NCBI RefSeq assembly: GCF_016862975.1
Contig: NZ_BONZ01000045.1
Location: 124,001 to 188,000, forward strand
DNA from: Rugosimonospora africana
GTDB lineage: Bacteria > Actinomycetota > Actinomycetes > Mycobacteriales > Micromonosporaceae
DNA: 64,000 bases
Direction: 5' to 3'
The position numbers and the translations under genes were made by a program. Under the pieces are notes generated by a model, which worked only from the letters and a program-made list of their open reading frames with translations, had not been told where the DNA came from and did no database searches. This document shows, piece after piece, positions 36,384 to 40,524 of this stretch; position 1 is the stretch's first letter, and the number at the start of each line of letters is the position of its first letter.

Positions 36384-37157
36384 TCAGAGGGAACGCTGGT
36401 AGACGCGGTAGGCGCGGGCCGCCAGCCACGCCATCACGATCGCCAGTACCGCCAGCAGCGCCACCCGCTCGAACACGAACCCCCAGTCCGGCGCCGCCCG
36501 TAGCGACTCCCGACTGGCTACCGCCGCCCAGTTCAGCGGGTTGAACCGGGCCAACCGGCCGACCCAGCCGGGCATCAAAGCGGGCGCCATCATCACCGAG
36601 GACAGGAACGCCAGCGGTAGCACCAGGAACTGCGAGACCGCGATCAACGCCTCCTGCTGGTGGACCAGCAGCGCGACCGCGTTGGACAGTCCGGCGAACA
36701 CCAGGGCGAGCAACGCCGCACAACCCAGCACGACCAGCAGCCCCAGGGGCCCACCCGGGTACCGGGCACCGGCTACCAGCCCGGTACCGAACATGATCAG
36801 CGACTGGACCACGGTAATCAGGGCCTGGTACGCCATCGAGCCGGCGACCAGGGCGGACCGGCGTACCGGGGAGGTGAGGGTGCGGTCCATGACCCCGCGC
36901 TCCATGTCCTGCACGATCGAGGTGCCGCTCCACCCGGCGGACATCATCGCGGTCATCACCACCACGCCCGGTGTGAGGTAGTCCAGGTAGTTGCCGCCGA
37001 AGCCGGGCAGCTCCGCAACCCGGCGGAAGAGCTGGCCGAACAGCAACAGCCACACCATCGGCTGGACCAGCGTGAACAGCAGGTACGCGGGCTGACGGGA
37101 CAGGGTACGCAACGAGCGGCCGGACAGCAGCCCGGTATGGGTCAACACGCTCGTCAT
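36384..37157 (-). CDS. ABC-2 type exporter permease (DrrB-like)
   Basis: 257 residues, six hydrophobic spans (YLLFTLVQPMVWLLLFGQLF, LTPGVVVMTAMMSAGW, MAYQALITVVQSLIMFGTGLVAG and others). This matches ABC-2 membrane subunits such as DrrB that export daunorubicin-like drugs. It overlaps the ATPase gene by ATGA, so they form one complex. The end of the operon is marked by the hairpin at 36261-36300. Confidence 0.87.
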   Translation of the reverse strand: MTSVLTHTGLLSGRSLRTLSRQPAYLLFTLVQPMVWLLLFGQLFRRVAELPGFGGNYLDYLTPGVVVMTAMMSAGWSGTSIVQDMERGVMDRTLTSPVRRSALVAGSMAYQALITVVQSLIMFGTGLVAGARYPGGPLGLLVVLGCAALLALVFAGLSNAVALLVHQQEALIAVSQFLVLPLAFLSSVMMAPALMPGWVGRLARFNPLNWAAVASRESLRAAPDWGFVFERVALLAVLAIVMAWLAARAYRVYQRSL

Positions 37158-38158
37158 ACCGGCACCACCTCCCGCCCGGCCCCGGCCCGGTCCGCTTCGC
37201 CGAAACTGCGGCCGGCGTGGTGCAGGTACACGTCGTCCAGCGAGGGCCGGGCGACGCTCACCGACGTTAGCCCGACTCCGGCGCCCTCCAGCGCGGCGAG
37301 CACCGCGGGCAGCGCGGCGGCCCCGTTGCCCACCCGAGCCTGCAGGGTGGCGCCTTCGGCGAGAGTGGCGCTGACCCCGGGGACCGTCCCGATCGCCCGG
37401 CCGGCCCGGTCCGCCTCTGACGGGCGGACCAGACCCACCCGGACGGTGTCTCCGCCCAACTCACTCTTGAGCTGGTCGGGGGTGCCGGCGGCGACCACCC
37501 GCCCGGCATCGACGATGACCAGTTGTGCGGCCAGGTGGTCGGCTTCGTCGAGGTAGTGCGTGGTCAGCAGCACAGTCAGCCCGTCGTGGCGGGCCAGCCG
37601 GGCGATCTCCGCCCACAGGTCCAACCGCGCCTGCGGATCCAGGCCGGTGGTGGGTTCGTCGAGGAACAGCACGCGGGGGCGGTGCATCAGCCCCATGGCG
37701 ACGTCGAGCTTGCGCTGCATCCCGCCGGACCAGGCGCCGGCCAGCCGGCGAGCGGCCGCGGACAGATCGAGGCGGTCGAGCAATTCGGCCGCGCGCGCCC
37801 GGGCCGCGCGGGCCGAGGCGCCGTGGACCCGGCCCTGCAACACGAGGTTCTCCATCCCGGTGGCGACCGGGTCGAAGCCCGGCTTCTGCGAGACGTACCC
37901 GATGAGCCGCCGGACCTGGTCGGGGTGCTTGCCGACGTCGATGCCGAGGATGCTGGCCCGGCCCCGGTCCGGCCGCGACAGTGTGGTCAGGATCCGTACC
38001 GCGGTCGACTTGCCGGCTCCGTTCGGGCCAAGCAGCCCGAACACGATGCCGGGGCGCACGGTGAAGGTGAGGCAGTCGAGGGCACGTACGGCCTTGGCGC
38101 CCTTACCGTACGTCTTTTCCAGCTCCACCGCCTCCACGGCCGGTGCTGGTGTGGACAT
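37154..38158 (-). CDS. ABC exporter ATP-binding protein (DrrA-like)
   Basis: 334 residues from ATG 38158 (AAGGAG ribosome site). Walker A GPNGAGKST (44-52), signature SGGMQRKLDVAMGL, Walker B RVLFLDEPTTGLDPQ, H-loop LLTTHYLDEAD. The C-terminal third (about residues 230-320) is the DrrA-specific regulatory region (GVSATLAEG, LTSVSVARPSLDDVYL). With the ABC-2 permease it forms a drug or lipid exporter. The upstream PadR-controlled gene ends at a strong terminator, so this pair has its own promoter. Confidence 0.9.
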   Translation of the reverse strand: MSTPAPAVEAVELEKTYGKGAKAVRALDCLTFTVRPGIVFGLLGPNGAGKSTAVRILTTLSRPDRGRASILGIDVGKHPDQVRRLIGYVSQKPGFDPVATGMENLVLQGRVHGASARAARARAAELLDRLDLSAAARRLAGAWSGGMQRKLDVAMGLMHRPRVLFLDEPTTGLDPQARLDLWAEIARLARHDGLTVLLTTHYLDEADHLAAQLVIVDAGRVVAAGTPDQLKSELGGDTVRVGLVRPSEADRAGRAIGTVPGVSATLAEGATLQARVGNGAAALPAVLAALEGAGVGLTSVSVARPSLDDVYLHHAGRSFGEADRAGAGREVVPV

Positions 38159-38301
38159 GTGTGCTCCTTGAGATTGCCGGGCGGTCCGGCCGCCCGGGAT
38201 GCGAAGGAGCCGGCGGGTCGAGGTGCGGCGTGGGCTACCGTGGCGATTGCAGGCACGCACGGCGGGTCGGCCGCCTCGGTCGACGACTCCGGTGTGTCAC
38301 C

Positions 38302-38335
38302 CCGTGGCCGCGGTGTTGGCGCACCGCGGCCACGG
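38302..38335 (-). terminator. Perfect 14-bp stem terminator after the PadR-controlled membrane gene
   Basis: CCGTGGCCGCGGTG (38302-38315) pairs perfectly with CACCGCGGCCACGG (38322-38335) around a 6-base loop. It lies 15 bases downstream of the membrane gene stop on the minus strand and separates it from the DrrAB pair. Confidence 0.8.
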
Positions 38336-38349
38336 ACTCTTCAGGACCT

Positions 38350-39252
38350 CTACTCGGGCCGTGGGACGAACAGCATCCGAGCGAGCATGATCATCATGAT
38401 CACGACGCCGCCTACGATTGCCAGCCAGGACCAGACCCAGCCGGCGGTCAGGGTGAGCACCACGAACCCGACAATGGCCAGCAGCCAGGTGACCGCGGTG
38501 TAGACGCCGAACCGGGCGGCGGCCGCGGGATCCTCGGCGAACCGGTTGCCGACAGCCGCGTGCGACTCCTGCATCCGGACCACCCATTCCTTGTGGCGAT
38601 TGGTCTGCGTGGCACCGAGGTAGCTCAGCAGCCCGACGGCCACCAGTACCGACACCGCGCCACCGATGACCCAGCCCATGCCGCCGTCGCGCAGGTACAG
38701 CCAGCCGCCGCCCAGCCCGGCCACGGCCAACAGGGCACCGACGCCGTACCCGGCGGCGCGCCGGCCGGGCATCGGGTGGTTGCTGGTCGTCTCCTGACAC
38801 AGCGCGTCAGCGGTGACCGCTCCAGCCGCCACGGCGACGCCGAGTACCGCGGCGACCTGACCGCCGAGCGGGACACCGCCTGCGGTGGCGGCCAGGGCCA
38901 GTACGGCCAGCCCGGCCACTCCGAGCGCGGACAGCAACACGGTGCGCAGTACGAAATCCGGCCGAGGGCGCACCCGCTGGTGCTGCCACGGTGCGGCGGA
39001 GGTGGTAGCAGCCGGTTCCGTGCCGTCGACGATGGCGTGGACGTCGCCGAGTTCCTCAACCGCCCGGCGCGCAGCAGCGCCCCCGGCCAGCCCACCGGCC
39101 TCCAGTTCGGCCACCCGAGCCATCAGATTGGCTCGCATCTCCTCTTTCAGATCCTGCCGTTCGAGGGTCATCTCAATGCCCGCGAACGCCTGGTCGAGCA
39201 GCCGATGGACATCCATGTCGGAGCCGCCCGTGATGTCGTTGGGTCTGGTCAC
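38350..39252 (-). CDS. Membrane protein with cytoplasmic permease-prefix-like helix domain
   Basis: 300 residues. The first 85 form a soluble helical domain (DVHRLLDQAFAGIEMTLERQDLKEEMRANLMARVAELEAGG), which resembles the short domain found at the start of PadR-linked membrane proteins and permeases. Seven or so membrane spans follow (TVLLSALGVAGLAVLALAAT, GVGALLAVAGLGGGWLYL, AVSVLVAVGLLSYLGA, TWLLAIVGFVVLTLTAGWVW). It is coupled to the padR gene by a 4-base overlap and probably forms a stress-responsive envelope system. Confidence 0.75.
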   Translation of the reverse strand: MTRPNDITGGSDMDVHRLLDQAFAGIEMTLERQDLKEEMRANLMARVAELEAGGLAGGAAARRAVEELGDVHAIVDGTEPAATTSAAPWQHQRVRPRPDFVLRTVLLSALGVAGLAVLALAATAGGVPLGGQVAAVLGVAVAAGAVTADALCQETTSNHPMPGRRAAGYGVGALLAVAGLGGGWLYLRDGGMGWVIGGAVSVLVAVGLLSYLGATQTNRHKEWVVRMQESHAAVGNRFAEDPAAAARFGVYTAVTWLLAIVGFVVLTLTAGWVWSWLAIVGGVVIMMIMLARMLFVPRPE

Positions 39253-39662
39253 GATGACCGCCTTCCGGGTGCCGCGCCGCCGGGACCGGTGGACCGGTCC
39301 AGGTCGATAAGGGAGTCGATGAGATCGCGGGTGAGCGCCCAGGCCGCCACGTTGCGGCGGTACACGGCGCGGCCCGCGTCGGTGATGCGGTAGTACTTGC
39401 GCCGCCCGCCCTGGCTCTCATCACCCCAGTACGCCTCGATGAGGCCGTCTTTCTCCAGGCGCCGGTACGTCGCGTAGAGAGTCGCCTCCTTGATCTCGTG
39501 CCGGCCGCCAGTGGCGTCCCGGATCCGCTTGAAGATCTCGAAGCCGTAGCTGTCGTCCTGACGCAGCACTGCCAGCACGATCGTGTCGGTGTGCCCGCGC
39601 AGCAGGTCGGCGGCGAGGACTTCGACGCTGGAGGAGCCATCGCCCCGGGCGTTCTCAACCAC
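39249..39662 (-). CDS. PadR-family regulator
   Basis: 137 residues from GTG 39662. The winged helix DTIVLAVLRQDDSYGFEIFKRI, EIKEATLYATYRRLEKDGLI and GGRRKYYRITDAGRAVY is the PadR hallmark; a short C-terminal dimerisation helix follows. No Shine-Dalgarno precedes the start, and a -10-like element ends seven bases before it, so the transcript may be leaderless. The perfect dyad covering that promoter argues for autorepression of the padR-membrane gene operon. Confidence 0.9.
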   Translation of the reverse strand: MVENARGDGSSSVEVLAADLLRGHTDTIVLAVLRQDDSYGFEIFKRIRDATGGRHEIKEATLYATYRRLEKDGLIEAYWGDESQGGRRKYYRITDAGRAVYRRNVAAWALTRDLIDSLIDLDRSTGPGGAAPGRRSS

Positions 39663-39876: not shown

Positions 39877-40524
39877 TCATCCAGCATGGTGATAGACGAT
39901 CTGCCAGTTTCCTGCGACAACCTTGAGGAGCATGGTGTGATGCCGTAGGCCGCTGTCGGTGACGGCTTCAGCAGAGCAGAGCGCCTCCCAGCGTCCGGTG
40001 CCGACGAGCCACTCGGCCTCGGACAGTGACGCTATTCCGGCCTCGGGCAATGCGGCGCTGAAGGCGTCTCGCCCCCGGACCGCGCGTCCTGCCATCCACA
40101 GCGTGGCGTGGCGGTCGATCAAGGAGGCGAGGAGTTTTTCCGATCTTTTGCTGAGTGCGTGCCGGTAGGCGTCGAGGAAAGTGTCGAGTTCGTGGGCGGT
40201 TTCCTCGTTGGCGTCGATGGTGATCGGCTCGCCCTGCGCGATGGGCCGTAACGCGATATCGCAAGCTCGATCGAAGTCCTGGTAACAGGAGGGGTCGTCC
40301 GCGTGGTTCACGAAACGCGCCGGTGCTGGGTAGAGGTAGCGGCGGCCTGCGTAGCTGTGCACGAAGAGATCCTCGCCAGCAGGTAGGGCCAGGTAGTCGG
40401 CCTCGTCGAGTGGCTGAAGCCGGTAAGACACGACCACTTCACCGGCGGCGAAGTCACGCGCGGCGTAAACGCCTGTGCCGGCGAGGTTGCCCGGGCCAAG
40501 TATCACATCGTCCACAACGGACAC
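39877..40524 (-). CDS. SET-domain / NTF2-like fusion protein
   Basis: 215 residues from GTG 40524. Residues 5-110 resemble a SET methyltransferase domain: GTGVYAARDFAAGEVVVSY, then FVNHADDPSCYQDF (SET form FxNHs-c-PN) and GEPITIDANEE where SET proteins have the ELxxDY block. Residues 130-215 are NTF2/DUF4440-like: LASLIDRHATLWMAGRAVRGRDAF, EWLVGTGRWEALC and LLKVVAGNWQIVYHH. The final Tyr of SET catalysis is not evident, so activity is unsure. Stop of the MarR remnant and this start are adjacent. Fusion of these folds is unusual. Confidence 0.65.
   Translation of the reverse strand: MSVVDDVILGPGNLAGTGVYAARDFAAGEVVVSYRLQPLDEADYLALPAGEDLFVHSYAGRRYLYPAPARFVNHADDPSCYQDFDRACDIALRPIAQGEPITIDANEETAHELDTFLDAYRHALSKRSEKLLASLIDRHATLWMAGRAVRGRDAFSAALPEAGIASLSEAEWLVGTGRWEALCSAEAVTDSGLRHHTMLLKVVAGNWQIVYHHAG

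Follow-up and report, generated by a model that had tools for sequence, protein, structure and literature searches.

What does a bacterial protein do in which a SET domain runs directly into an NTF2-like domain, and which chemistry could its SET half support? The question is raised by one gene in the window, by which we mean the whole stretch of 64,000 nucleotides of Rugosimonospora africana DNA that was analysed. A reading-frame check of the window revealed a 215-codon open reading frame without interruption at 39877-40524 on the minus strand. The gene and its immediate neighbour were delimited as follows:

39877..40515, minus strand: gene of the SET and NTF2-like fusion with the GTG at 40513-40515 as preferred start, 212 amino acids
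40524, minus strand: alternative longer start of the fusion gene, 215 amino acids
40525..40794, minus strand: truncated MarR-like reading frame of 89 codons just upstream of the fusion gene (Pfam)

The shorter version is the likelier one because homologues L008-L011 could start at a GTG equivalent to the one at 40515 and an AGGTG lies 6 nt 5′ of this codon; on this basis the gene probably spans 39877-40515. The genome of the window carries one copy of the fusion. The original prediction had described the next gene upstream as a broken MarR regulator. Truncation is supported, as the frame covers only positions 21-58 of the 61 of MarR_2, barely above the cut-off, and the piece of frame preceding it has no Pfam match; the exact breakage is presumptive. 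The MarR-like neighbour is not conserved beside the fusion homologues and therefore provides no functional information. At 36384-39662 (minus strand) a PadR-type regulator (PF03551, 81 bits), a membrane protein with a weak HAAS match, an ABC-type ATPase and a permease follow in series. This row is probably an exporter operon, the ABC genes being named from sequence alone.

The first half of the protein, for which a SET core with an FVNHADDPSC motif (residues 71-80) had been proposed, was assigned to the SET family by profile search. The row counts given here and below refer to the clade that is defined further on.

40213..40479, minus strand: SET domain PF00856, residues 16-104 (38.6 bits against a cut-off of 22.4, E 1.5e-9)
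40471..40479, minus strand: GxG motif, residues 16-18, which we take to be SET cofactor-binding motif I (G16 and G18 in 16 of the 16 clade rows readable there)
40303..40308, minus strand: N73-H74, the NH motif of cofactor binding (N in 17/17, H in 16/17 clade rows)

PF00856 was matched by all 14 members of alignment A2, in 12 of which the second half is present. Among the features that mark a SET lysine methyltransferase, the GxG and NH motifs are present in the clade, G16, G18 and N73 being invariant where readable. An AlphaFold model of the whole protein based on a 14-row alignment reached a pLDDT of 89.6 and a pTM of 0.84. Its residues 2-105 align with vSET (PBCV-1 A612L, PDB 3kma/1n3j; here 3kma) with Z 11.9 and an rmsd of 2.2 over 101 aligned residues. 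A SET-only model (pLDDT 90.9) gave the same picture: SET-containing structures were among the matches listed by VIA, with vSET first (Z 10.5, rmsd 2.8, 99 aligned), and the top Foldseek matches were SET structures. vSET, a minimal SET fold like the SET half of the window protein, is therefore the closest structure, and the SET assignment of the original prediction holds. A search of NCBIfam returned no family for the protein, and a search of PHROGs nothing significant. SAF-domain matches were found in 10 of the 14 A2 members (best E 0.011), the window protein lying below the cut-off. According to a passage of a review, SAF-like folds are the presumed origin of SET (PMC3980110).

The second half had been described as NTF2/DUF4440-like.

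39880..40209, minus strand: NTF2-like (SnoaL/DUF4440-like) domain, residues 106-215 (profile matches of kin and AlphaFold model)

On its own, this half of the window protein is below Pfam significance (DUF4440 E 0.069, 14 bits against a cut-off of 25.2). We identify it as NTF2-like because its kin match SnoaL_2 (5 of 14 A2 members, best 8e-5), DUF4440 (3 of 14, best 0.0012) and SnoaL_3, and because the model is confident. The matches include a CPR homologue of the same two-part layout, L029, with 33.4 bits for DUF4440 (cut-off 25.2) and 22.7 for SnoaL_3 (cut-off 22). In the model, residues from about 104 to 215 align with many NTF2-like structures, the best with Z 14.7 and an rmsd of 1.8 over 105 aligned residues. 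Neither profile search nor structure comparison assigned either half to another fold. The domain resembles SnoaL_2, DUF4440 and SnoaL_3 domains in fold and by weak sequence match; unlike the known ones, it is attached directly after a SET core. A known catalytic set was not identified in it. The NTF2 half of L029 aligns with the actinomycete halves from end to end (26% identity to the window protein; E 2.1e-9 in a set of 12 sequences; 33.7 bits by profile), and its junction with the SET core has the same position. It is therefore likely, judging from these alignments, that one ancient fusion stands behind the CPR and actinomycete forms. The strong sequence divergence between them means that the pocket need not be conserved.

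The main point, on which the original prediction was silent, is that the motif-IV tyrosine is naturally absent from this SET domain.

40210..40212, minus strand: codon of A105, which stands where SET motif IV has its catalytic tyrosine (alanine in 17 of the 17 readable clade rows)

The site, which is the position after the motif-IV Asp and 105 in window numbering, was compared in an alignment of 64 SET stretches that omits eleven loci (duplicates L001, L002, L006, L010, L023, L024, L025 and L057; marginal L003/L007; frame-broken L005). Alanine occupies position 105 in 17 of the 64 rows, namely in 12 actinomycete fusions, four CPR SET-only proteins (one a partial frame) and one CPR fusion. L019, cut off before the site, was set aside. 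The 46 remaining rows have 41 Tyr, one Phe, one Asp and three gaps, so that tyrosine is found in 41 of 43 readable rows, a total that counts two rows twice through the overlapping loci L022 and L026. Three alignment methods agree on alanine in the clade. A profile alignment with MLL4 and MLL3 places the alanine opposite the Y of the human DY motif, and in the structure alignments the last aligned pair is A105 of the model (A102 of the SET-only model) with vSET residue 105. vSET has its catalytic Y105 there and is a histone H3 methyltransferase, whereas the window protein has alanine followed by the NTF2 domain, whose first predicted helix (residues 105-126) begins at the very position of the missing tyrosine. 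Thus the motif-IV tyrosine expected of a SET lysine methyltransferase is lacking in all readable rows of the clade.

Four further PF00856 loci of the same genome and its relatives (L069-L072) show the DY motif by eye. One of them, L070 (G000:C29:23691-23978), is a second, ordinary SET gene of the window's genome with the DY motif and post-SET cysteines. In the CPR protein L050 one SET domain follows another, and the second carries Asp where the motif-IV tyrosine would be; this may be an independent loss in a pair of one active and one inactive domain.

In published work, changing the equivalent Tyr to Ala costs SET enzymes their methylation activity, which counts against an active enzyme. According to passages of the respective papers, mutation of G9a Y1154 or GLP Y1211 entails a loss of activity (PMC2797608), yeast Set1 is null with Y1054A and partly active with Y1054F (PMC3585878), vSET Y105A/F serve as catalytic mutants (PMC3510492), and BurB is almost inactive with Y124A and keeps more than 60% with Y124F (PMC12542666). 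Instead of an aromatic residue at the BurB Tyr124 place the window protein has A105, the two being equated by their equal spacing from the NH histidine only (31 residues in both). The G9a/GLP, Set1 and BurB mutants support the chief rival explanation, a catalytically dead pseudo-SET whose pocket binds SAM, SAH or another ligand, so that the protein would act as a sensor or binder and use its NTF2 domain for dimerisation or ligand storage. The retained cofactor motifs agree with such a role, and NTF2-like folds often dimerise. We consider this explanation quite possible, and the observations that speak against it are given where they arise.

The loss of the tyrosine is accompanied by changes at other positions of the SET half.

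40357..40365, minus strand: F54-V55-H56 (F54 and H56 fixed in the clade, 17/17)

The tyrosine-bearing siblings L030, L032, L034 and L038 have Tyr at 54, A, S, S and L at 56 and Met at 65, where the clade has F54, H56 and Y65; columns 54-65 are less certain than 105 because of a variable loop before NH, with 54 and 56 the same in three alignments. The cysteine of NHxC is lost in the clade, which has D, A or R there (one of the four siblings has Y), and no post-SET cysteine cluster was seen in the clade sequences. Position 34 (motif II) is aromatic, with 13 Y, two F, one W and one gap. Residues 55-58 are predicted to form a strand, and H56, two residues past F54, may face the same side; F54, H56 and Y65 would all lie in the predicted substrate channel. 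L030 and L032, the nearest outgroups of the clade in the tree, of which L030 is 41% identical over the SET half, differ from it in keeping Tyr at 105, the NHSC cysteine and post-SET cysteines. Coordinated channel changes of this kind resemble re-tooling and not decay, which speaks against a pseudo-SET.

The same residues bear on another reading, that of an ordinary protein (lysine) methyltransferase whose missing motif-IV tyrosine would be replaced by Y34, Y65 or a residue of the NTF2 helix. The Pfam SET match is above the cut-off, the best PDB sequence matches of the protein are histone methyltransferases, and position 34 is aromatic in all 16 clade rows that can be read there. However, hydroxyls of the channel that are present in the nearest siblings are lost through F54 as well as A105, the post-SET segment is absent, and the NTF2 domain would occupy the place of the clamp on the substrate peptide. 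We therefore regard this reading as unlikely.

Alanine at this position can also mean more than a loss. Passages of two papers report that G9a Y1154A and GLP Y1211A accept synthetic SAM analogues and transfer their bulky alkyl groups (PMC5502580, PMC11211345), and the natural change seen here is identical at the aligned place. The clade could accordingly be a natural ‘bump-and-hole’ enzyme, with a site enlarged by alanine and a bulky SAM derivative instead of SAM as donor. This seems improbable to us, since the homologues have no linked candidate cofactor gene and H56, Y65 or the NTF2 helix could fill the space. A wider form of the idea, suggested by the fact that the loss of the gatekeeper tyrosine is the same change that chemists engineered into G9a, is a naturally evolved ‘hole’ SET enzyme that uses a bulky SAM-like donor or performs non-methyl transfer onto a small molecule under the NTF2 lid, its module having moved between CPR bacteria and actinomycetes; this, too, we would mention as a long shot.

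The fusion is distributed patchily. A profile match was found in 2 of 61 relatives, the window's own genome counted, and in 2 of 296 genomes of the class, namely the own genome and a marginal match with one stop (G227, E 9.7e-4), which was dropped. When a three-sequence profile was run against 84,980 species genomes, 15 loci were confirmed. Intact fusions account for eleven of them and come from Actinoplanes, Paractinoplanes, Streptomyces, Microlunatus and Actinocatenispora. Paractinoplanes pyxinae, besides its intact copy (L009), has a frame-broken fusion (L019:6048-6874). The other three loci encode two 108-aa proteins of CPR MAGs that consist of SET alone (L020, L021) and a distantly related SET protein (L022). 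L022 and L026 comprise three SET stretches close to each other in one MAG. In Streptomyces californicus, a plasmid carries an intact copy of the fusion and a second plasmid a frame-broken one (L005:729-1366).

In the CPR phylum of L020, the profile of the SET half matched 40 of 286 genomes, mostly with ordinary SET proteins that have the tyrosine. The set includes the SET-only L028, the partial frame L031 and the 227-aa SET and NTF2 fusion L029. The SET module of about 108 aa stands alone in L020, L021 and L028. The original prediction had held SET proteins to be rare in bacteria, with ribosomal or histone-like proteins as their main targets. This was too strong in view of the CPR matches, of a review passage that puts the number of bacterial genomes with SET genes above 500 by 2014 (PMC3980110), and of BurB, which is described in part of its report as a bacterial SET enzyme that methylates free methionine, a methionine S-methyltransferase (PMC12542666).

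In a midpoint-rooted tree that left out eight short, duplicate or tandem rows, the alanine rows and the cut-off row L019 form one group of 17 rows with a support of 100/99. The clade is thus monophyletic, and its nearest outgroups are the tyrosine-bearing CPR proteins L030 and L032 (96/96). The simplest reading of these sequences would be that the tyrosine was lost once and that the gene passed, in either direction, between CPR bacteria and actinomycetes. A phage or viral origin was also considered and rejected, with no phage match and no confirmed relative in three viral-contig scans; the CPR form has one distant match in an uncultured phage record (32%, E 1e-3). An 835-base unit that is common to two CPR genomes at 88.5% identity (L020:7949-8782 and L076:5960-6782) contains a SET-only gene and a convergent GIY-YIG gene. 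Its end adjoins a tRNA-Leu in one genome and a tRNA-Met in the other, and the flanks are otherwise unlike, which suggests a small mobile unit.

Patchiness and the two broken copies, L019 and the plasmid-borne L005, might indicate a decaying or accidental fusion without function. Against this stand eleven intact actinomycete loci in the species-level genome set, the same architecture in a CPR genome, and low dN/dS in both halves. By the NG86 method, comparison of the window gene with 11 homologues gave dN/dS values of 0.064-0.203 for the SET half and 0.172-0.381 for the NTF2 half, rough values as pS is 0.42-0.67 and synonymous sites are partly saturated. The SET half is under strong purifying selection and, by its lower dN/dS, it is the tyrosine-less half that is better conserved. 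These values disfavour decay, which is very improbable.

A conserved operon was absent from 14 actinomycete contexts examined with a rough custom gene caller; context was shared only within two S. californicus records, two Microlunatus species and the pair L015/L017. The four CPR contexts have no common neighbours except the 835-base unit of the two related genomes. An upstream serine hydrolase of the beta-lactamase family in the window, L015 and L017 was rejected as a linked gene: at 27-28% identity and differing distances, we regard its recurrence as a coincidence of a large family. For a pseudo-SET, a conserved partner or regulator would be expected beside the homologues, and the stand-alone 108-aa form, if a sensor, would require a separate output. 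A stand-alone form and the lack of a common partner gene across unlike loci rather favour a self-sufficient enzyme over a sensor that needs a partner.

We therefore favour, with a probability of roughly 40%, a re-tooled SAM-binding enzyme acting on a non-lysine acceptor, with the NTF2 part as lid, pocket or dimer interface, because cofactor motifs are kept, constraint is strong, channel changes are coordinated and the 108-aa form is self-sufficient. As far as sequence and model allow, the SET part would bind SAM or a close relative. The NTF2-like domain starts at the missing tyrosine, in the place of a post-SET segment that would normally close the active site. It would offer a pocket, and SET pocket and NTF2 lid together would handle the acceptor, most likely a small molecule. 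H56 is a candidate catalytic or positioning residue. Most likely, then, the protein would not methylate protein lysines but act as a self-contained transferase with altered chemistry. BurB/MSMT (PDB 9l4v; Foldseek E 3.0e-4, TMq 0.63), like the window protein a small bacterial SET protein, is a precedent for a small-molecule acceptor; it differs in keeping Tyr124, and the parts of its report that describe the 172-aa protein do not mention an NTF2 domain (PMC12542666). The earlier idea that the protein could methylate a small molecule or bind without catalysis is reasonable and is sharpened by the missing tyrosine.

SET domains, NTF2-like domains, bacterial SET proteins and one small-molecule SET enzyme are known. 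A conserved natural clade that combines the lack of the motif-IV tyrosine with an NTF2-like fusion did not turn up in open-licence PMC texts, a literature search of weak scope. The proteins, at 108-215 aa, are small enough for easy expression and crystallisation. They represent a conserved, apparently selected SET family without a residue regarded as essential for SET catalysis, and their activity or inactivity would test both the natural need for this tyrosine and SET chemistry beyond the methylation of lysine and methionine.
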